From contig PBGH01000007.1 in the NCBI GenBank assembly GCA_002720055.1, forward strand, positions 7,920-24,922: DNA of 17,003 nucleotides, read 5' to 3'. Shown here one piece after another: positions 175 through 17,003 of this stretch. A model generated the notes under the pieces. The model saw only the letters and a program-made list of their open reading frames with translations, had not been told where the DNA came from and searched no databases. The DNA comes from Methanobacteriota archaeon (GTDB lineage: Archaea > Thermoplasmatota > Poseidoniia > Poseidoniales > Thalassarchaeaceae). How positions within the stretch are numbered: position 1 is the first letter of the stretch; every line of letters starts with the position of its first letter. Both the position numbers and the translations under genes were made by a program.

Positions 175-180
175 CACCTC
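175..180 (-). promoter_or_regulatory. Shine-Dalgarno of subunit IV gene
   Basis: On the minus strand GAGGTG sits 7 bases upstream of the ATG at 167 and overlaps the TGA stop of the subunit III gene (179-181). This fixes the subunit IV start and implies coupled translation. Confidence 0.6.
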
Positions 181-1306
181 AATACAGATAGAAGAACGGG
201 AAGACAAGGACCCATACCAGGTCCACGAAGTGCCAGTACAGGCCGAAGTACTCTATCGAGACCGCGTTGTCGGGAGTGTATCCTCCTCTCGCGGCCTTCA
301 GGGTCATGTAGGTCAGTCCGATTATTCCACCGAAGACGTGAGCCCCGTGCGTACCCGTAGTGACGTAGAATGTGGTGGCGCTCACCTGTATGTTCGCCAT
401 CATCTGACCTCCTGGGTGCGTTCCCTCCTGCATCATCGCGTAGAGCGCGCTGTCCTTGGAGATGTCCTTGCCATCGTGGTACATCGTGTCGTAGGCGTAG
501 TGTTGGTAGCTTTCGGCGTTGATCGTGTATCCCTCGGAGTAGAGAGATGCTATCTCCGAGTGACCGTGATTAAGTTCCGTGAGAGGGCCAGGAGTTGGGA
601 ACCCAATGAACCACTCGATCATCTTCAGAGTCAGGAACAGTATCGCTAGTACCCACGTTGAACCCAGGTATCGCATGACCTTCCTCTTCCTTATGTCCTC
701 ATCTATGTCCTTCATTTTCGCATAACGCAGGGCCTGAACGATGGTGAACGAGGAAATTATCAGTGCGAAGGTGTTTATCGCACCAGGTGCGATGTGAAAC
801 CAGCTACTCGCGATAAGATGCGCGGCCGGCTCGAAGCATGTCACAGACGTCCCCTCAACCCAATCTCCCGACTCGAATACGGTCTTGCAGTTCGAGATGC
901 CGAATCGGTACCTCATGTATGTGCTGAATAGCGAAGTGAATACCATCATCTCAGACATCAGGAACATCCAGAGCGCTACCTTGCGAATGTCTATGTTCTG
1001 GAACGGAGTACCTGATGACTTTGGCTCCCAGAGATGCTTTGAGTCCTTGCCATCAATCCCATAGCTCCAGTCCTGCCTCCACCATATCAATAGGCCGAAG
1101 AAGACTACTCCTAGCGAGGCGAAGATTAGTGGTACTTCGTTCCATCCTGTGAAGTCGCCCCATTCGAAGGCAGCAGCGAGGGTAAACAGGAATGCTGCGA
1201 ATCCCGCACTCATGATGATGGGGGACCATGAATTGTGCGGAGCACCATGGTTCCAGTCGTGCGGGCCCCATGCACTGGGGTGGTGTTGGTGGTCATCGGC
1301 GCTCAG
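179..1306 (-). CDS. coxC: Cytochrome c oxidase subunit III, probable CTG start
   Basis: Subunit III of the membrane terminal oxidase that reduces O2 to water; it stabilises subunit I and the D proton pathway. Family hallmarks are the helix ALWMFLMSEMMVFTSLFSTY, the block GTHGAHVFGGIIGLTYM and the C-terminal WHFVDLVWVLVFPFFYLY. An insert of about 60 residues lies in the middle, including LNHGHSEIASLYSEG. The first ATG in frame is at 1213, but it has no ribosome-binding site and cuts off a conserved-looking stretch (APHNSWSPII) that precedes the first helix. The frame stays open upstream to a TGA at 1325-1327 and contains no ATG, GTG or TTG there. A CTG at 1304-1306 has GGAGGTG five bases upstream and overlaps the subunit I stop as CTGA. 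I therefore place the start there, giving about 375 residues with a His-rich N-terminus. If CTG is not used, the protein begins at 1213 (344 residues). Confidence 0.9.
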   Translation of the reverse strand: MSADDHQHHPSAWGPHDWNHGAPHNSWSPIIMSAGFAAFLFTLAAAFEWGDFTGWNEVPLIFASLGVVFFGLLIWWRQDWSYGIDGKDSKHLWEPKSSGTPFQNIDIRKVALWMFLMSEMMVFTSLFSTYMRYRFGISNCKTVFESGDWVEGTSVTCFEPAAHLIASSWFHIAPGAINTFALIISSFTIVQALRYAKMKDIDEDIRKRKVMRYLGSTWVLAILFLTLKMIEWFIGFPTPGPLTELNHGHSEIASLYSEGYTINAESYQHYAYDTMYHDGKDISKDSALYAMMQEGTHPGGQMMANIQVSATTFYVTTGTHGAHVFGGIIGLTYMTLKAARGGYTPDNAVSIEYFGLYWHFVDLVWVLVFPFFYLY

Positions 1307-3642
1307 TTCGACACCTCCGAAGAATCATCATCGCTAACCATCAGTCTCTGGAACCAGCGACCCATCACTCCGGGCTCATTGGCAATGTGCTCGTTAGCGT
1401 CCTCGAGAGTTGGAAGCCCCCAAGTCCCGTCACTTAGCTTGTAGAGGGTGTGGGCAGGTGGTGGTGAGCTGGTCATCCACTCGAACGACCATCCGCCCCA
1501 TGGGTCGTCTGGAGCTTCTTCGCCCCTGATGGAGGTGACGATCATGTTGAACACTAGTATGAAGTTAGAGAAGAAGAATATGAAACCGGAGACTGTGATG
1601 AACATGTTCCACCCAGCCGCCTCCATGGGTAGGGAACCGAGGGCCTCTTCGGTGGTAACGAAGTAGGTGTGGTGCCTCCTCGTCATTCCCCACACTCCCA
1701 GCCTGTGCATGGGCCAGAAGAGGGCGTTATAGGATACGAAAGCGGTCAGGAAGTGTAGCACGCCAAGCTTCTCGCTCAGCATCTTTCCTGTCGCCTTTGG
1801 CCACCAATAGTAGATTCCCGCGAAGAACCCGAACACAGTCCCTCCTACGAGGACGTAGTGGAAGTGAGCTACTACAAAGTAGGACTCATGGAGGTGGGTA
1901 TCCATCGCTATGGAGGGGAAGAACATACCTGAAATTCCTCCTAGGGTGAATGTGATCAAGAAGCCCAGAGCCCACAGGGTATGGGTCCTGTAGACGAGGG
2001 ATCCGCCGTGCATGGTCATCAGCCAGTTGAAGATCTTGATTCCGGTAGGGACGGCCACAAGCATCGTGGTCAGCATGGTCACGAACCTTAGAGTGGGGCT
2101 CATACCGCTTGTGAACATATGGTGACCGTAGACTATGAAAGCTACCACGCCGATACCCGCCAGAGCGTAAACCATCGATCTGTACCCGAAGACGGATCTT
2201 CTGGAGCTCGTGGCTAGGACCTCGGAGATAATTCCGAATGAAGGTAGTATCACCACGTATACCTCGGGATGCCCGAAGTACCAGAACAAGTGACTCCAGA
2301 GAAGCGGGTCCCCTCCGGCCTGTATGTCGTAGAAGGCAGTGCCTATTACCCGGTCTAGGTATACTTGTACCAGGCCGACTCCGAATGCTGGTATCGAGAG
2401 GAAAAGCATGACGTTTGCGACTAGTATCGACCAGCTGAATAGTGGCATCTGCATCCACCCCATCCCAGGGGCCCTCATGACCGCCATGGTGGTCAGGAAG
2501 TTGATTCCCGTCAGAGTCGAAGAGGCCACAAGAAGGATCTGTCCCGCAGCCCACATGGTTGTACCAGCATGGGTTCCTTCACTTACCGAGTAGGGGGCAT
2601 ATCCAGTCCATCCAGTGTCGGCCCCGTGCCCAGAGAAGACGCCAGTGAAAATCAGTAGGGCCGCGAATGGTTGAAGCCAGAAGGACATGGCGTTTATTCT
2701 CGGTAATGCCAGATCGGCAGCTCCAAGCTGCAGCGGAATCATCCAGTTGGCGAAGCCGTTAATCATCGGCATCGCAGCTAAGAAAATCATGGTAGTTCCG
2801 TGCAACGTAAAGAACTGATTGTATTGGTCTTGAGTCAGGAAGTCGTTACCAGGTACGGCCAACTGGATTCGGATTATCATAGCCATAATTCCTCCCACTC
2901 CTAGGAAGAATAGTCCTGCGACGAAGTAGAGTGTACCGATCTTCTTGTGATCAGTGGTGGTCAGCCAGTCAGCCAACCAAGGCGCGAAGCTGTCCCAGTC
3001 GAATGCGTCAGGGTCCCTCCTGTAGAAGACATAGACTAGAGTGGTAGATAGGAGGGTGAGAGAGACTAGTATCAGGACAGCTAGAACCACGAAGGGATCA
3101 GCCGACTCGAGGACCTCTATCGGCCCTCCTAGCGTAACTGCCTTCAGGTTCCACATATCCCCGCTAGTACCGGCCCCACCGCCCGCATTTCCATTGACCG
3201 AGTTTGCGTAGAGCTCGAACTCTACATTCCTGTCGGTGGCGGGAGCAGTCCAAGTAATCGTCCAAGAGGTCTGATCGTTTCCAGCCTCGGTATGTCCTGC
3301 CTCATTACCGTTTGGCCAGACTTGCACAGTAGCCTCGCTAGATGACAGGACTCCCTCGCTGACCCATAGGTAGAATCCTCCTTGGTTTATGTTTCCTGGT
3401 TGGGAGGGCCCCCCTTCGAAAGAGAGTGAAAGCTCGTAAGACTCGGAGTAGTTGTAGCTCTCTGGGAGCCCTTCTAGCGAGACCACCACTTCATCATCAG
3501 GAGTAATTGCGTGGCACGTGCACCCTCCAGGGGCCTTCACCCCTCCGGGCAGGGATTGCGCGGAGGGCAGAGCTAGCATACCCGCGACCAGGACTAGTGC
3601 CAAAGCGGCCCACTTTACTTTATTCCGTGCCAAGACTCCCAC
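1303..3642 (-). CDS. coxA: Cytochrome c oxidase subunit I with an N-terminal exported domain
   Basis: Catalytic subunit of a type A1 heme-copper oxidase. Visible ligands: H281 (low-spin heme), H458 and Y462 in HPEVY (CuB and cross-linked Tyr, with D-channel Glu460), H507-H508 (CuB), and H593/H595 in VAHFHYV (hemes). D310 in the GAADLALPR block and K536 in VPTGIKIFNW fit the D and K proton channels. At 779 residues it is about 200 longer than usual. The extra N-terminus has a signal peptide (about 1-29), a beta-rich domain (about 35-175) beginning with CTCH at 41-44, and an additional helix (about 183-207) that returns the chain to the cytoplasm before the normal DHKKIGTLYF start. The domain resembles Reeler/choice-of-anchor-V-like domains, a tentative match from memory. 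The start is GTG directly after the subunit II stop (TAG-GTG), implying coupled translation. Confidence 0.97.
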   Translation of the reverse strand: MGVLARNKVKWAALALVLVAGMLALPSAQSLPGGVKAPGGCTCHAITPDDEVVVSLEGLPESYNYSESYELSLSFEGGPSQPGNINQGGFYLWVSEGVLSSSEATVQVWPNGNEAGHTEAGNDQTSWTITWTAPATDRNVEFELYANSVNGNAGGGAGTSGDMWNLKAVTLGGPIEVLESADPFVVLAVLILVSLTLLSTTLVYVFYRRDPDAFDWDSFAPWLADWLTTTDHKKIGTLYFVAGLFFLGVGGIMAMIIRIQLAVPGNDFLTQDQYNQFFTLHGTTMIFLAAMPMINGFANWMIPLQLGAADLALPRINAMSFWLQPFAALLIFTGVFSGHGADTGWTGYAPYSVSEGTHAGTTMWAAGQILLVASSTLTGINFLTTMAVMRAPGMGWMQMPLFSWSILVANVMLFLSIPAFGVGLVQVYLDRVIGTAFYDIQAGGDPLLWSHLFWYFGHPEVYVVILPSFGIISEVLATSSRRSVFGYRSMVYALAGIGVVAFIVYGHHMFTSGMSPTLRFVTMLTTMLVAVPTGIKIFNWLMTMHGGSLVYRTHTLWALGFLITFTLGGISGMFFPSIAMDTHLHESYFVVAHFHYVLVGGTVFGFFAGIYYWWPKATGKMLSEKLGVLHFLTAFVSYNALFWPMHRLGVWGMTRRHHTYFVTTEEALGSLPMEAAGWNMFITVSGFIFFFSNFILVFNMIVTSIRGEEAPDDPWGGWSFEWMTSSPPPAHTLYKLSDGTWGLPTLEDANEHIANEPGVMGRWFQRLMVSDDDSSEVSN
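1312..1318 (-). promoter_or_regulatory. Shine-Dalgarno deciding the subunit III start
   Basis: On the minus strand GGAGGTG lies inside the end of the subunit I gene, five bases before the CTG at 1306. There is no competing ATG, GTG or TTG in the subunit III frame near it. It is the main support for the non-canonical start. Confidence 0.55.
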
Positions 3643-4365
3643 CTACGCATGCGCCTCTAGTTTCGCGGCCATTATTGAGTGGGCGTCACCACAATACTCT
3701 GCACAGAGTATCATCGACTCATCTGTCATCGAATCAACTATCGTGAGCCATAGTGTTGTTGTCTGACCGGGCACAGCATCTTCCTTGTTCCCAAGGTGCT
3801 GGAACCATGGCGCATGAGTAACATCAATGGTTTCCATAATTGCTAGATAAGTCTCCCCCTTCTTCAGACTTAGAACCGGGACAGTTCCGTATACCTCCAT
3901 CGATTCCGTACCTGTGTCACAAAGTGTGGTGTCTAACTCCAGACAGTCGAAACTCCAGAACCACTGTTGTCCAGTAATCTCGATAACATGATAGCAGTCT
4001 GAGGTTACAATTCCCGAAGAGGCCATGACGTTGTTCGAAAACTCTCCCTCCCCACATTCGTAACCGTGGTTACCTCCATCTGCAGAAGTCCACATTGCAT
4101 CAAGCGGGCCCCAAGAGTAGTATGTTAGCCAGACTATCAGTATGAATGGGAGAATTGTCCAAGCCACTTCTAATCTCATGTCATCGTTGTGTCGTGGGAA
4201 GACTCCGACCTTGAGGTCGTCCTTGTTAGGCAGGGTTTCTCCATCCTTTGACGTGAACCAGAATGAGTGGTGAAACAGCCACCCGAATGCAATCGCTCCC
4301 ACTATTACAGACCAAAAAATGTAATGGTCCCAGAGATTCTCAAAGATAGGAGTCATCACGCTCAT
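3643..4365 (-). CDS. coxB: Cytochrome c oxidase subunit II (CuA)
   Basis: Subunit II takes electrons from the soluble donor through the binuclear CuA centre and passes them to subunit I. The CuA ligands are complete: H184 in DVTHAPW, then C221, E223, C225, H229 and M232 in CAEYCGDAHSIM. The aromatic electron-entry block is GQQWFWSFD (132-140). Two transmembrane helices (about 16-36 and 68-84) anchor the cupredoxin domain outside. No fused cytochrome c domain is present. Four extra cysteines (104, 124, 141, 149) in the exposed domain are unusual and could form disulfides. It is the first gene of the II-I-III-IV operon. The ATG has no Shine-Dalgarno, and a TATA-like element lies about 26 bases upstream, consistent with a leaderless transcript. 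Confidence 0.96.
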   Translation of the reverse strand: MSVMTPIFENLWDHYIFWSVIVGAIAFGWLFHHSFWFTSKDGETLPNKDDLKVGVFPRHNDDMRLEVAWTILPFILIVWLTYYSWGPLDAMWTSADGGNHGYECGEGEFSNNVMASSGIVTSDCYHVIEITGQQWFWSFDCLELDTTLCDTGTESMEVYGTVPVLSLKKGETYLAIMETIDVTHAPWFQHLGNKEDAVPGQTTTLWLTIVDSMTDESMILCAEYCGDAHSIMAAKLEAHA

Positions 4366-12505: not shown

Positions 12506-14599
12506 ATGACCGAAGCCGACCCGATAGACCGCGACACTCTAACATCTAGAACTGTGGCGCAACTCAGAGAAATTTGCAAGAAAAAGGGTCTGATGGTATC
12601 GGGAAAGAAGTCTGAGTTGGTAGAGAGAATTCTCGATGATGAAGGAACAGATCATACCTTGGATGAAGAGGAAACCGAAGATTGGGAACACGAAGAAGCA
12701 CTGGTTATGGAGGAAGAGGAGGATGTATCGGACGTTCGAAAAAAGGTCTCAGAGACACTATCGAAGATAGAAAATGTCGTAGAGGCTGAGGTGGTAGAGG
12801 CAGATGTGTTTGAGGTTGAACAAATATCCGAGGAAAAATCTAAACCCATAATTTTCAGAGAAGACGACCAACCCTCCTTAGTCATTTCAATGCCTACTTT
12901 GTCCTCGATAGGAAATAGATGGAAGGCAGCGACTGCAATAGCGTTAGTTGTAATCCTAGTCGGTGCCGCTGCCACTGTATTTCTACAGAGGAGCTCGGGA
13001 TTCACTTCAGACAGGTTACATTTTGGAGATAGCATGGATTTCCAGGTTATCGACTCCAGTATCAGTATAGTTGGTGATGAAATGCTTGGACTGGTGAGGG
13101 ACTCAACTGGAGGAATCATGGATCCAGCATGCGAGGAACTATCCGTCGAAATGTCTGGCACAGGATTCGTTTCAGTAACAAATGGATTTGAGTCGGGTGC
13201 TGTAGAGACTACCGACAGTCTTGGTAGAAGCGGGTTCCTCGCAGTCGAAAAGAACATTGGTATGGATTTAGATGTGGACTTCGAGGGGAGAACTTGGAGG
13301 GACGATGATCAGACCGACTGTGGTAATATCAAGTGGGTCATGTCAGATAATGAATTATCGATAGAGTCCACTAGCTGGGTAGAAATGGAGAAGAGTGAGG
13401 TGAAGAGAGCAGATACCTTGCTTTCCTTCAGAGACGTAGATTTCGAGACAACTAATTTCCGGACAGTGACTTATGATGATGAAGGACTTGGAGGTTTAGC
13501 AGCAATAATACCCACTCTATCGTTCCCGCTAACCCCAATAGAATTGTACGATTTCTTCGGCGATGCTACTATCAAAGAGGGAGCTAGGTCATCCGATCCA
13601 GACCTAGGTTGGAATTCAGATTGGAGATGGGAGGTCAAGAAGGAAATTTCCGACGAAACACACGGTTTGGTGTATCCAGTTGAGATGGAACATGTCGAAA
13701 TCGATAGGTGCTACGGCCATGCTACAGTATCATTGCTTGTGAAAAAAGGGAGTCCATGGCCAGTAGAACAGATAGCAGACATACTACTCGACAAAGATCT
13801 TCAGACTGGAGACTGTGATTTTCTTGTCAGCGCACTATCCGACGAAATACTCCCAGAGGGATCACTCTCGATTAGAGCTTCATTCTCCAGCACGGACTCT
13901 ACCTCCGGAAGTAAATCTGTAGATTGGGGTAGGAACTACTTTGGAAGCCCTACTGATGGGGAGGATAGACCGGGCACATCCAGCAAAAGAAATTGGGTCG
14001 ATTCGATGTGGGATGAATCTGACATCAGACAATTCGACATCGAAGAAGCCATGGCCTGTCTAAAGTCAAGCCATCCTTCCAATCAGGCTACGATTGCGGT
14101 AGAATCAGGTGGATATATCTGGAAGTCAGATTGGTCTAAGCCAACAGGAGAAGGAGAGTGGAACCTATCTTGGGTAGATGAGGATGACGATTCAGGTTGG
14201 ATAGTACTAAGAAAATCCTCAGATGGGTGCGAGATCATTGATTCCGGATCAAACGATAGAGGGGATGTAATGTGGAATCGAGACTCCATCCCGACAACCC
14301 AGACAATGAATCTGCTAGAGACGAGAATATTGTCTCAAGAAAGGTATCCCGACCTTTCCCAGCACATTCAGTCTGGAAATATTTGGAATCAGGAGGTTCA
14401 CGTCGGGTACAGACTCTCCGTCACAGAAGACAATGAGTTCCTTAGCCTGCTTCCGGGAGATATTGGAGATGGAAAGGTTACAATGTCGGCAAACAGGGAA
14501 TGGGTGAGCGGAAGCCGCGAAAACTCACTGGTTATGGCAATGGACGCGGAGACTGGTGAGATGGTAATCTGGTACCTCATCGACACTACCTCTAATTGA
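12506..14599 (+). CDS. Membrane-anchored SAP-domain protein
   Basis: A 697-residue protein with three parts. Residues about 12-46 are a SAP/HeH-type DNA-binding domain (RTVAQLREICKKKGLMVSGKKSELVERI). Residues 47-125 are a very acidic, probably disordered or helical linker. One transmembrane helix follows at 140-160 (AATAIALVVILVGAAATVFL). The remaining 537 residues should lie outside the cell and are beta-rich and acidic, with six cysteines spaced as pairs (209/272, 402/437, 518/575) that could form disulfides in three modules. With the SAP domain inside, the protein could tether DNA to the membrane. The outside domain matches nothing I recognise. It is upstream of parA on the same strand with a 69-base gap, and diverges from rimK. 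Start: ATG 12506, no Shine-Dalgarno. Confidence 0.85.
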   Translation: MTEADPIDRDTLTSRTVAQLREICKKKGLMVSGKKSELVERILDDEGTDHTLDEEETEDWEHEEALVMEEEEDVSDVRKKVSETLSKIENVVEAEVVEADVFEVEQISEEKSKPIIFREDDQPSLVISMPTLSSIGNRWKAATAIALVVILVGAAATVFLQRSSGFTSDRLHFGDSMDFQVIDSSISIVGDEMLGLVRDSTGGIMDPACEELSVEMSGTGFVSVTNGFESGAVETTDSLGRSGFLAVEKNIGMDLDVDFEGRTWRDDDQTDCGNIKWVMSDNELSIESTSWVEMEKSEVKRADTLLSFRDVDFETTNFRTVTYDDEGLGGLAAIIPTLSFPLTPIELYDFFGDATIKEGARSSDPDLGWNSDWRWEVKKEISDETHGLVYPVEMEHVEIDRCYGHATVSLLVKKGSPWPVEQIADILLDKDLQTGDCDFLVSALSDEILPEGSLSIRASFSSTDSTSGSKSVDWGRNYFGSPTDGEDRPGTSSKRNWVDSMWDESDIRQFDIEEAMACLKSSHPSNQATIAVESGGYIWKSDWSKPTGEGEWNLSWVDEDDDSGWIVLRKSSDGCEIIDSGSNDRGDVMWNRDSIPTTQTMNLLETRILSQERYPDLSQHIQSGNIWNQEVHVGYRLSVTEDNEFLSLLPGDIGDGKVTMSANREWVSGSRENSLVMAMDAETGEMVIWYLIDTTSN

Positions 14600-14668: not shown

Positions 14669-15622
14669 ATGTCACCATTGGGGGGAGATGATGCGCTTCC
14701 AAAAGTTAGCGAGGCCCCCCTTATCACCGATGTAGAGTTCTCCGAGGAAGAAGATTTTGATGACCACCAATCTATCCATGCTCCTGAGGAAGTCGGAACT
14801 TCCAATGCTAAGGGGCCGCTAGAGCTCCCTTTGCCCCATCCAACTCCAAGCGGTAGAGCTCGAGTTGTAACAGTTGCCAACCAAAAAGGAGGTGTCGGTA
14901 AAACTACCACTGTAATCAATATCGCAGCCCAACTCGCTCTGAGAGGGCATAAAGTCCTGGTAGTCGACTCCGACTCTCAGGGCAATTGCGCTACCGGACT
15001 CGGAGTAGATAAGAGCAGAGTTAGAACTACCACGAGAGACTTGATTTTTAATCCCGAGAAAGCCGTAGATTCAAGACATGCTACCGCGGTAGAAAATCTG
15101 CACATGATCGTAGGTGATAGGACTTTGATAGGACTAGAGCAGGAAATGTTGAGGCAACTAGGCAGAGAGAAAAGAATGAACGAGGCACTCAAGCCTCTAC
15201 TATCGCACTATGATATTGTCATTATAGACACCCCGCCTACTCTTGGCTTGGTCACGATTAATGCATTTGTTGCATCTGACGCGATTTTGATACCCGTTCA
15301 GACAGAGTACTTCGCATTGGAAGGCCTAGCAATGCTTGCAGGGACAATTAGAGAGGTGAGGAGCCTGCTGAATGAGAGATTAGGAGTTGACGGAGTTTTA
15401 ATGACAATGCACGCGCGTAGTCTCCTGAACAAGCAAGTTGCAGGGGAATTGCTCGAAACCCTGCCTGATTTTGTATTGAAGCCCGCAATTAGGAGAAATG
15501 TCAGACTCGCAGAAGCCCCTAGTCATGGGATACCCATCCATCTCCATGACCCAACGAGCCCTGGAGGGAAAGACTACCAGGAAATAGCAACAGTTCTAGA
15601 GCGACGTTGGGGACTGGCTTAG
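14669..15622 (+). CDS. parA: ParA/Soj-family partition ATPase
   Basis: ParA ATPases form ATP-dependent dimers on DNA and move or position chromosomes and other cargo when a partner protein stimulates hydrolysis. The deviant Walker A is NQKGGVGKTT (71-80, signature Lys73, catalytic Lys78). The A' motif is VVDSDSQGN (98-106), where most family members have DxDPQGN. Walker B is IVIIDTPP (183-190). The C-terminal part (VLKPAIRRNVRLAEAPSHGIPI) is typical of Soj/ParA rather than MinD, and there is no C-terminal amphipathic membrane helix. A 62-residue acidic, Pro-containing extension precedes the ATPase core. No parB with a DNA-binding domain is adjacent; instead the next gene begins directly after the TAG stop and carries a ParB-like N-terminal peptide. 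Confidence 0.94.
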   Translation: MSPLGGDDALPKVSEAPLITDVEFSEEEDFDDHQSIHAPEEVGTSNAKGPLELPLPHPTPSGRARVVTVANQKGGVGKTTTVINIAAQLALRGHKVLVVDSDSQGNCATGLGVDKSRVRTTTRDLIFNPEKAVDSRHATAVENLHMIVGDRTLIGLEQEMLRQLGREKRMNEALKPLLSHYDIVIIDTPPTLGLVTINAFVASDAILIPVQTEYFALEGLAMLAGTIREVRSLLNERLGVDGVLMTMHARSLLNKQVAGELLETLPDFVLKPAIRRNVRLAEAPSHGIPIHLHDPTSPGGKDYQEIATVLERRWGLA

Positions 15623-16591
15623 ATGTCGAAGCGTGGATTAGGTCGAAGCCTCAGTGACGTTCACTCATCATCAGAGGGACCAGATCTTTCCTCATTTCTG
15701 AAACACGAACATTTGCCCGATTCGCCTAGGGTTGCAGTATTATGGATGATTTTCGGCAGTGTGTGCTTTGGAACAATGAATGCCTTAGTCAAGTGGACTA
15801 GTGATTATGCAGACGTTTGGATGATAATAATGGTCAGGTCATCTGTAATTGCCTTCGCAGTTGCGGTTTTTGCTGCATCTAAGGGAATTAGCCTTAGGAT
15901 CAATGATCCTAGAACTATGCTGCTTCGATGCCTGGTCGGGCTGATTGCCATGTCACTATACTTCACCGCACTAGCTCGAATCCCAATCGGCCAAGCAGTA
16001 ACCCTCCAGTATACGGGTCCACTATTCGTGGCATTGCTTTCAGGAAGGATACTTTCCGAGAGGGTCTCGTCCAGAGTTGCAATTCTCGTTATTACAGCAT
16101 TTGTAGGGATAGTTCTGATCATATCCCCTGAGCTAGGAAACGTCCAGCTGGACGCCCTACTCGCTCTTGGTTCAGGTTTCTTTGCAGCTCTCGCATACAT
16201 GTTTGTTAGGGAGCTAAGAAAATCAGACTCCCCGGCTACTGTCGTATTTTGGTTTGCAGTATTTTCAGTTGCTGGAACCTTCTTCCAATCTATCCCGGGA
16301 ATACTATCTGTAGATTCCAAGACTCTAGCAGCTCTCGTAGGGGTTGGTATTGGAGCGGGTGGTGGCCAAATAGGAATCACAATGGCATATCACAAGGCCA
16401 ATGCTGCTTGGGTTAGTGCTTTCTCCTACCTAACAGTCCTAGTAGCCACATTCTATGGATTAATGTTATTCGGCGAGACCCTAAGTCCATCAGATATTAT
16501 CGGTGGAATTATGATCGTCGGATCAGGGATCGCTCTTGTCCTAGCTGTTCCGGTTGAAGAAAATAGCTCATCAGGAGTTAACATATCCTAG
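15623..16591 (+). CDS. EamA/DMT-superfamily transporter with ParB-like N-terminal peptide
   Basis: A ten-helix membrane protein made of two EamA repeats (about 36-170 and 178-312). A family-like block is RCLVGLIAMSLYFTALARI followed by GQAVTLQYTGPLFVALLSG at the end of the first repeat. DMT transporters move small metabolites; the substrate is not readable. The unusual part is the cytosolic N-terminus: MSKRGLGRSLSDV is nearly the opening of bacterial ParB proteins (KRGLGRGLSAL), the peptide that binds ParA and triggers ATP hydrolysis. A polar linker of about 20 residues follows, then the first helix. No ParB CTPase or HTH domain is present in any frame. The ATG is immediately after the parA stop (TAG-ATG), implying coupled translation. 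No other in-frame ATG occurs before codon 42, inside the first helix, so the peptide is very probably part of the protein. Confidence 0.9.
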   Translation: MSKRGLGRSLSDVHSSSEGPDLSSFLKHEHLPDSPRVAVLWMIFGSVCFGTMNALVKWTSDYADVWMIIMVRSSVIAFAVAVFAASKGISLRINDPRTMLLRCLVGLIAMSLYFTALARIPIGQAVTLQYTGPLFVALLSGRILSERVSSRVAILVITAFVGIVLIISPELGNVQLDALLALGSGFFAALAYMFVRELRKSDSPATVVFWFAVFSVAGTFFQSIPGILSVDSKTLAALVGVGIGAGGGQIGITMAYHKANAAWVSAFSYLTVLVATFYGLMLFGETLSPSDIIGGIMIVGSGIALVLAVPVEENSSSGVNIS

Positions 16592-17003
16592 TGTCAAAAT
16601 CTGTATGTTTCCTCCCATACTCCCGTGATTTTGGCAGTAATAGTATAGGTTGTCCGGAGCATCCAAAGGAACTGTGAAAGTAAGAAGTCCATTACTTCCT
16701 TGAGTTCCAGTGTAGGTTACTCCATCCGTATATGCGGATCCTCCCCCATGGGTGCCATCACTCGTGGTGGAAAATCTCAGGGGGTGAGCGGAGTTTGAAG
16801 AAGCAGACTGCTCGAATGTGTAGGTGAATCCTCTGTATAGTCCCACCTCAGCCTGTTGAATACCATCGATGTAGAATTTCATACCCGTCACCGTAACTAC
16901 CATTTCCATTACTACGGGCATCGAGCCGTTGACACCATCGGCACCATCGGCACCATCGGCACCATCGGCACCATCGGCACCATCGGCACCATCGGCACCA
17001 TCG
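16571..17003 (-). CDS. Exported collagen-like/cupredoxin-like protein, partial (N-terminus beyond window)
   Basis: Only the C-terminal 143 residues are visible. They begin with nine Gly-X-Y style triplets (seven Asp-Gly-Ala units, then DGV, NGS), followed by a domain of about 115 residues. That domain resembles a cupredoxin: H46 in SAHPLRF and C96, H99 and M102 in YYYCQNHGSMGG (numbered from the Met at 16921) match the His-Cys-His-Met set of type I copper sites, though with a short Cys-x2-His-x2-Met loop. Such domains occur at the ends of large exported marine proteins. The Met at 16921 should not be taken as the start, since the frame stays open through the repeat to the window edge. The gene overlaps the transporter gene tail-to-tail by 21 bases. 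Confidence 0.8.
   Translation of the reverse strand, partial: DGADGADGADGADGADGADGADGVNGSMPVVMEMVVTVTGMKFYIDGIQQAEVGLYRGFTYTFEQSASSNSAHPLRFSTTSDGTHGGGSAYTDGVTYTGTQGSNGLLTFTVPLDAPDNLYYYCQNHGSMGGNIQILTLGYVNS
16933..17003. repeat. 9-bp tandem repeat (caccatcgg)n
   Basis: Seven perfect copies and most of an eighth of caccatcgg run to the window edge. On the minus strand each copy encodes Gly-Ala-Asp, so copy-number changes keep the reading frame and only lengthen or shorten the collagen-like stalk. The total number of copies is unknown because the array is cut. Confidence 0.95.

Follow-up and report, generated by a model that had tools for sequence, protein, structure and literature searches.

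The window analysed here, 17,003 nucleotides from an archaeon of the order Poseidoniales (contig PBGH01000007.1 of assembly GCA_002720055.1), carries three plus-strand genes of interest. The first (12506..14599) encodes a protein with a SAP domain (Pfam, 5.1e-10; the scan for the domain itself covered the window only), one transmembrane segment (residues 142-160) and a large outer part. Downstream lies parA (14669..15622, with its TAG stop at 15620-15622), whose 317-residue product, hereafter ParA1, is a ParA-family ATPase with a deviant Walker A motif, KGGVGKTT (Pfam AAA_31, 1e-54). The third gene, eamA (15623..16591), specifies a 322-residue EamA/DMT-type transporter (Pfam PF00892, 1.4e-25, in two stretches). 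As the initial annotation of this locus stated, the ATG of eamA at 15623 directly abuts the parA stop codon. Elsewhere in the window, three adjoining minus-strand frames (179-4365) resemble, by eye, subunits III, I, and II of cytochrome oxidase; the subunit I-like frame (779 residues) is extended at its N-terminus by a long stretch that contains a CTCH motif. A further minus-strand frame (16571-17002), without a Pfam match, has an (Asp-Gly-Ala)n repeat and, after it, a small domain that by eye resembles a cupredoxin.

The transporter starts MSKRGLGRSLSDVHSSSEGPDLSSFLKHEHLPDSPR. Its N-terminal peptide, MSKRGLGRSLSDV (15623..15661, plus strand; core GLGRSL at 15635-15652), had been likened to the start of bacterial ParB, and the likeness holds: residues L6, R8, L10, and V13 fit L-x-[RK]-x-L-x-x-hydrophobic, and thereby the ParA-binding motif of Myxococcus xanthus ParB, L-x-R-x-L-x-x-hydrophobic. 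The remainder of the predicted cytosolic tail (15662..15730, residues 14-36) includes a second motif, PDLSSF, that is particular to the EamA carrier; the first transmembrane helix begins at residue 37. Eight clear hydropathy peaks, together with two hydrophobic stretches judged by eye to span the membrane, fit ten helices, and the positive loops, likewise judged by eye, place the tail in the cytosol. The peptide thus appears to sit on the cytosolic end of a ten-helix protein, as the initial annotation proposed. The ParB domain said to be absent from this carrier is indeed absent: the frame has EamA matches only, with no other Pfam family at E ≤ 0.001.

Conservation of the peptide was examined in two sets of sequences. 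Of 819 EamA homologues, 120 were listed, without selection for the motif; among these, L-x-R-x-L lies within the first 20 residues of 111, and GLGRGL within the first 20 of 107. The nine others comprise five database entries that start further down (P0114-P0118), three variants (GLGQGL twice, and GLGISL), and one protein without the peptide. The second set consists of 47 peptide loci with distinct ParA proteins. Selection of these loci used a pattern with the motif residues L, G, and L fixed, so that the invariance of these residues is by choice; they are nevertheless written with 6, 4, and 6 codons, respectively. The motif arginine is kept in 45 of the 47, and the other two have I or M. The conserved core is GLGRGL, the preceding residue varies, and the motif occurs even in EamA proteins about 50% identical to that of the window (L181 and L185). 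Judged from codon freedom, the retained arginine, and the unselected homologues, the peptide is translated and under selection at the protein level.

Thirty-eight eamA loci were fetched from the genome collection, and two 27% matches were dropped; parA lies directly upstream of eamA in all 36 remaining loci, which come from named records, and the peptide is present in 22 of these (two of the 22 with I or M for the arginine). One locus, L005, carries the archaeal parA-eamA cluster under the label of a bacterium, Acidiferrobacter, so this bin probably is mixed. The initial annotation had named homologous parA-eamA pairs without the peptide as evidence against its proposal, and such pairs exist: the peptide is absent in 39/86 distinct parA-eamA rows, and therefore is not obligatory. 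When 11 peptide-less genomes were searched for the peptide elsewhere, none of 45 motif matches was a convincing N-terminus. Together, these results indicate that ParA1 can do without the peptide.

What follows parA in related genomes that lack EamA? Of 292 genomes sampled across the order, with completeness unstated, 86 have EamA (E ≤ 1e-60) and 137 have ParA1 (E ≤ 1e-40), all 86 being among the 137. The gene after parA encodes an unrelated protein of 131-165 residues in 51/51 readable sister loci, representing 50 of the 51 EamA-less ParA1 genomes; in the remaining one, G126, the contig ends within ParA. This small protein also starts with the motif (for example, KKGLGRGLGDLLAQHDTDLPFL): strict L-x-R-G-L occurs near the start in 47/51, the exceptions being three with GGRGL or TGRGL and one in which a base is unreadable. 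Its predicted model is mostly disordered over residues 1-50 and compact thereafter. It matches nothing in Pfam better than E 0.04 (23 members searched) and nothing in NCBIfam (three members). Beyond the motif, the tails of EamA and the small protein show no detectable likeness (HHalign probability 0.4), so that origin of the EamA peptide by fusion with the small protein is not proven.

The small protein (E ≤ 0.01) is present in 170/292 genomes. It never occurs together with EamA (0/292), and 36 genomes have neither. In 120 genomes it is found with no ParA at E ≤ 1e-40; a search of 19 of these at a looser limit gave only a weaker ParA match in each, and the eight such loci read all encode a paralogue with the Walker A sequence KGGCAKTT. 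No ParA was found near the small protein within the few kb fetched at 20 loci from ParA1-less genomes (L260-L279). At these loci strict L-x-R-G-L is present in 3/20 (loose pattern, 7/20) versus 47/51 beside ParA1, as raw counts that ignore kinship. The first half of the motif is mostly lost, and RGLDHLMEQN..FLSAYG or RDLDHLMEQN is kept. Conservation of the stretch DHLMEQN..FLSAYG without an adjacent ParA1 implies that it has a role other than ParA1 binding. The KGGCAKTT paralogue loci (L280-L287) have, by eye, a MoxR-type AAA gene directly upstream, and a match to this paralogue, other than ParA1, is present in 11 of 12 ParA1-bearing genomes.

A tree of 137 distinct ParA rows was rooted on this second paralogue; the root is uncertain, owing to the long outgroup branch. 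Small-protein rows lie at the base, and the EamA rows, 87 in number, group in a single clade (SH-aLRT 93, slightly short of the support that the tool marks with a star). This clade comprises 47 rows with the peptide, 39 without it, and one unreadable row; the first-branching subgroup does not have it, and at least four changes in peptide presence are required. We read this pattern as repeated loss, which seems more probable than the same motif arising several times. In this order, the ancestral carrier probably was a soluble protein of about 150 residues with the same peptide.

The gene upstream of parA accompanies every arrangement. A homologue is present in 36/36 parA-eamA loci. Among loci L100-L219, counted by locus with repeated genomes included, those with more than 1.5 kb of upstream sequence have it in 46/46 small-protein, 41/41 peptide-less, and 24/24 peptide loci; with less upstream sequence the counts are 2/5 and 0/2. 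No homologue lies beside the unrelated ParA of L197. A protein anchored in the membrane and carrying a putative cytosolic DNA-binding domain would fit a system that connects nucleoid and membrane.

Carriers also were sought in other Thermoplasmatota. A sample of 243 genomes from across the phylum yielded ParA relatives (38-45% identity) at 22 places outside the order, and 20 of these loci were read. At seven, the next gene encodes a soluble protein of 210-447 residues starting ALGKG[MI] or ALGRGL, which is the full pattern. At five, it encodes a protein of about 90 residues starting KRGLD[SD]LISQ or KRRGLDDLISQ, a partial motif without the first leucine. The other eight have neither type directly next door; at one of them a short frame precedes a gene of the KRGLD type, and one runs into the contig end. 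Two groups of candidate ParA partners come from loci L341-L351 and L355-L360: the ALGKG[MI] soluble proteins of about 350-450 residues, which give weak TPR matches, and the KRGLD[SD]LISQ proteins of about 90 residues. All of these short motifs may bind ParA. Of the carriers seen, EamA alone is a membrane protein.

The initial annotation asked for a search for a separate parB, and no true ParB goes with ParA1 among relatives in the 292-genome sample. ParB_N (PF02195) is over the cut-off in seven genomes and strong in one (4e-32). At E ≤ 0.001 it is found in 50 genomes, mostly as weak matches of short frames; 43 genomes have sub-threshold matches, at 20-26 bits and for the most part in frames of 110-250 residues. 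The strong case (G287, locus L220) adjoins its own, different parA (43% identity), and its start, read by eye as RLGKGLGALL, provides an example of the bacterial motif from within the sample. This bacterial-type parA-parB pair lies on a 106-kb contig that itself looks bacterial, in a genome of the order Poseidoniales, and probably is contamination.

Does ParA1 retain the site that binds such a peptide? By sequence, its best solved relative is M. xanthus ParA (8RAY, 1.4e-55), followed by 1WCV/2BEK, which we take to be Thermus Soj. According to the available text of PMC12462528, residues L11, L15, L18, and I19 of M. xanthus ParB bind a ParA pocket formed by V116, L150, L152, L155, L187, and L192, and ParB R13, which stimulates hydrolysis, is placed near ParA Y81, E82, D110, and E117. 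In the 8RAY alignment, the hydrophobic pocket corresponds to Q158, L192, L194, I197, E229, and L234 of the window ParA, and the arginine pocket to R123, D124, T152, and E159. The segment L192-I197 (15242..15259, plus strand) thereby aligns with the ParB-binding loop L150/L152/L155, and R123-D124 (15035..15040, plus strand) with Y81-E82; M. xanthus Arg238 aligns with R279. Residues L192, L194, L234, and E159 are identical, and I197 and D124 are conservative. Counting the changes L155 to I and E82 to D in this way, 4/6 hydrophobic and 2/4 arginine-pocket positions are kept or conservative. The four changed residues of the ten are Y81 to R123, D110 to T152, V116 to Q158, and L187 to E229, so that two of the six hydrophobic positions are polar. 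By alignment, then, the floor of the pocket is kept, and its rim differs.

At the position of Tyr81, all readable rows of the three carrier states have Arg or Lys. This substitution and the changed rim imply either that the arginine of the peptide must dock differently or that stimulation is weaker. Columns 194 and 197 are invariant in 47/47 ParA proteins encoded with peptide-bearing EamA, and are the only two of 157 columns (those at least 97% conserved beside EamA with peptide) changed in most rows of at least three of five peptide-less groups, as drawn by the analyst. However, both columns also vary beside the small protein, tree-independent pairs number 2-4, too few for a test, and enrichment over the ten pocket columns gave p 0.07. 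An AlphaFold model of a read-through from ParA into the peptide was of low quality and uninformative (mean pLDDT 59.9; peptide under 50). Inspection of the ParA1 end (ERRWGLA) showed no MinD-like membrane helix.

The most likely reading is that the transporter serves as the partner of ParA. On balance we favour the view that the EamA N-terminus is a ParB-type ParA-binding peptide, through which the transporter became the partner of the preceding ParA. Its parts differ in strength. From sequence comparison, the tail is quite likely a ParA-docking peptide; that it stimulates ATP hydrolysis has slightly better than an even chance; and a purpose in positioning or nucleoid-membrane tethering is put forward tentatively. 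In this model, ATP-bound ParA dimers on the nucleoid would bind the cytosolic EamA tail in the cleft used by bacterial ParB. The tail would speed ATP hydrolysis and release, and ParA would be discharged at the membrane; as a likely outcome, nucleoid and transporter would be transiently tethered or positioned relative to each other. The soluble partner of about 150 residues presumably was replaced by EamA once, and the peptide later was lost in several EamA lineages. The ParA with a membrane-protein activator suggested by the initial annotation therefore stands in part: the ParB pattern, the protein-level selection, the unrelated carriers after the same parA, and the absence of a true ParB accompanying ParA1 in the relatives searched speak for it, whereas the peptide-less rows and the differing pocket residues speak against it.

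Binding might also occur without activation, the tail acting simply as a membrane anchor for ParA (with its DNA), or ParA gating the transporter. Binding in M. xanthus falls to the hydrophobic residues and stimulation to the arginine (available text of PMC12462528); here the tyrosine partner of that arginine is Arg123, and the arginine itself is replaced in two of 47 EamA genes and, by Q, in two of the 120 listed homologues. Such an arrangement nonetheless seems unlikely, given that the other 45 genes keep the arginine and that D124 (47/47) and E159 (46/47) are retained in ParA beside EamA with the peptide. It is improbable that the peptide is a relic, inherited from the small partner and being lost, with no present role. 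Its repeated changes and its absence from 39 rows would fit, but a conserved motif with nearly free synonymous codons, maintained even at about 50% EamA identity, is unlike a relic, and the 39 peptide-less rows hold no half-decayed motif (one chance match). Slightly less probable still is a tail that serves the transporter itself (folding, targeting, or another partner) and resembles ParB by convergence: PDLSSF and the lack of likeness to the small-protein tail are consistent with this, whereas the same motif starts unrelated proteins after parA, both in this order and in other Thermoplasmatota. A wrong start codon or a chance resemblance, to which the five downstream database starts might point, is scarcely credible and is refuted at the sequence level, since the codon pattern over 47 loci and 111 of the 120 listed homologues rule out the true start downstream of the peptide that the initial annotation had considered.

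If the transporter is the partner of ParA, the system resembles ParABS in its chromosomal-type ParA and in a partner, encoded directly after parA, that starts L-x-R-x-L-x-x-hydrophobic. It differs in that the partner is a transporter without ParB_N, and in four of the ten listed pocket residues. Partners of orphan ParA/MinD ATPases, such as TlpT, McdB, and PomX, are soluble proteins; here the partner is a polytopic membrane protein. SegAB and other archaeal segregation systems likewise pair a ParA-type ATPase with an adjacent partner, but the peptide at this locus is of the bacterial chromosomal type. HubP, a landmark, has to our knowledge no ParB-type activating tail, and Noc differs by binding the membrane itself.

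Other comparisons come from the available text of published sources. In the PpfA/TlpT and McdA/McdB systems (PMC10241942, PMC9178275), and also in PomZ/PomX, an N-terminal segment of a non-ParB partner, often a part of the cargo, contacts the ATPase. Partners with N-terminal activating peptides are in the two cited accounts a known class, so that the transporter-borne peptide would be a variant rather than a new class. MinD is a ParA/MinD ATPase activated by an N-terminal segment of MinE (PMC12462528); there the ATPase binds the membrane, whereas here the putative activator is in it. HubP (PMC10241942) and Noc are further links between ParA/ParB-type systems and the membrane or pole. For the ParA of Sulfolobus, differences are described in the pocket region and in the activating peptide (PMC12462528).

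Among the titles and abstract openings listed in searches of the open-access literature, we found neither a transporter with a ParB-type tail beside parA nor ParA in Poseidoniales, and we know of no account of chromosome placement in these marine archaea. A broader view, still short of even odds, is that the peptide is, in Thermoplasmatota, a mobile ParA-docking module shifted among unrelated carriers beside parA. Having reached a ten-helix transporter in one marine lineage, it would there reverse the geometry, with ParA on the nucleoid discharged by a membrane-fixed activator and the membrane-anchored SAP protein as a constant third component. If the ParA partner is an integral membrane protein, the activator would lie on the opposite side from that in ParABS, and the inherited unit suggested would be the ParA-docking peptide, not ParB. 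The carrier swap provides a natural experiment, since one ParA occurs in some genomes beside a soluble partner, in others beside a membrane partner, and in others again with neither peptide.
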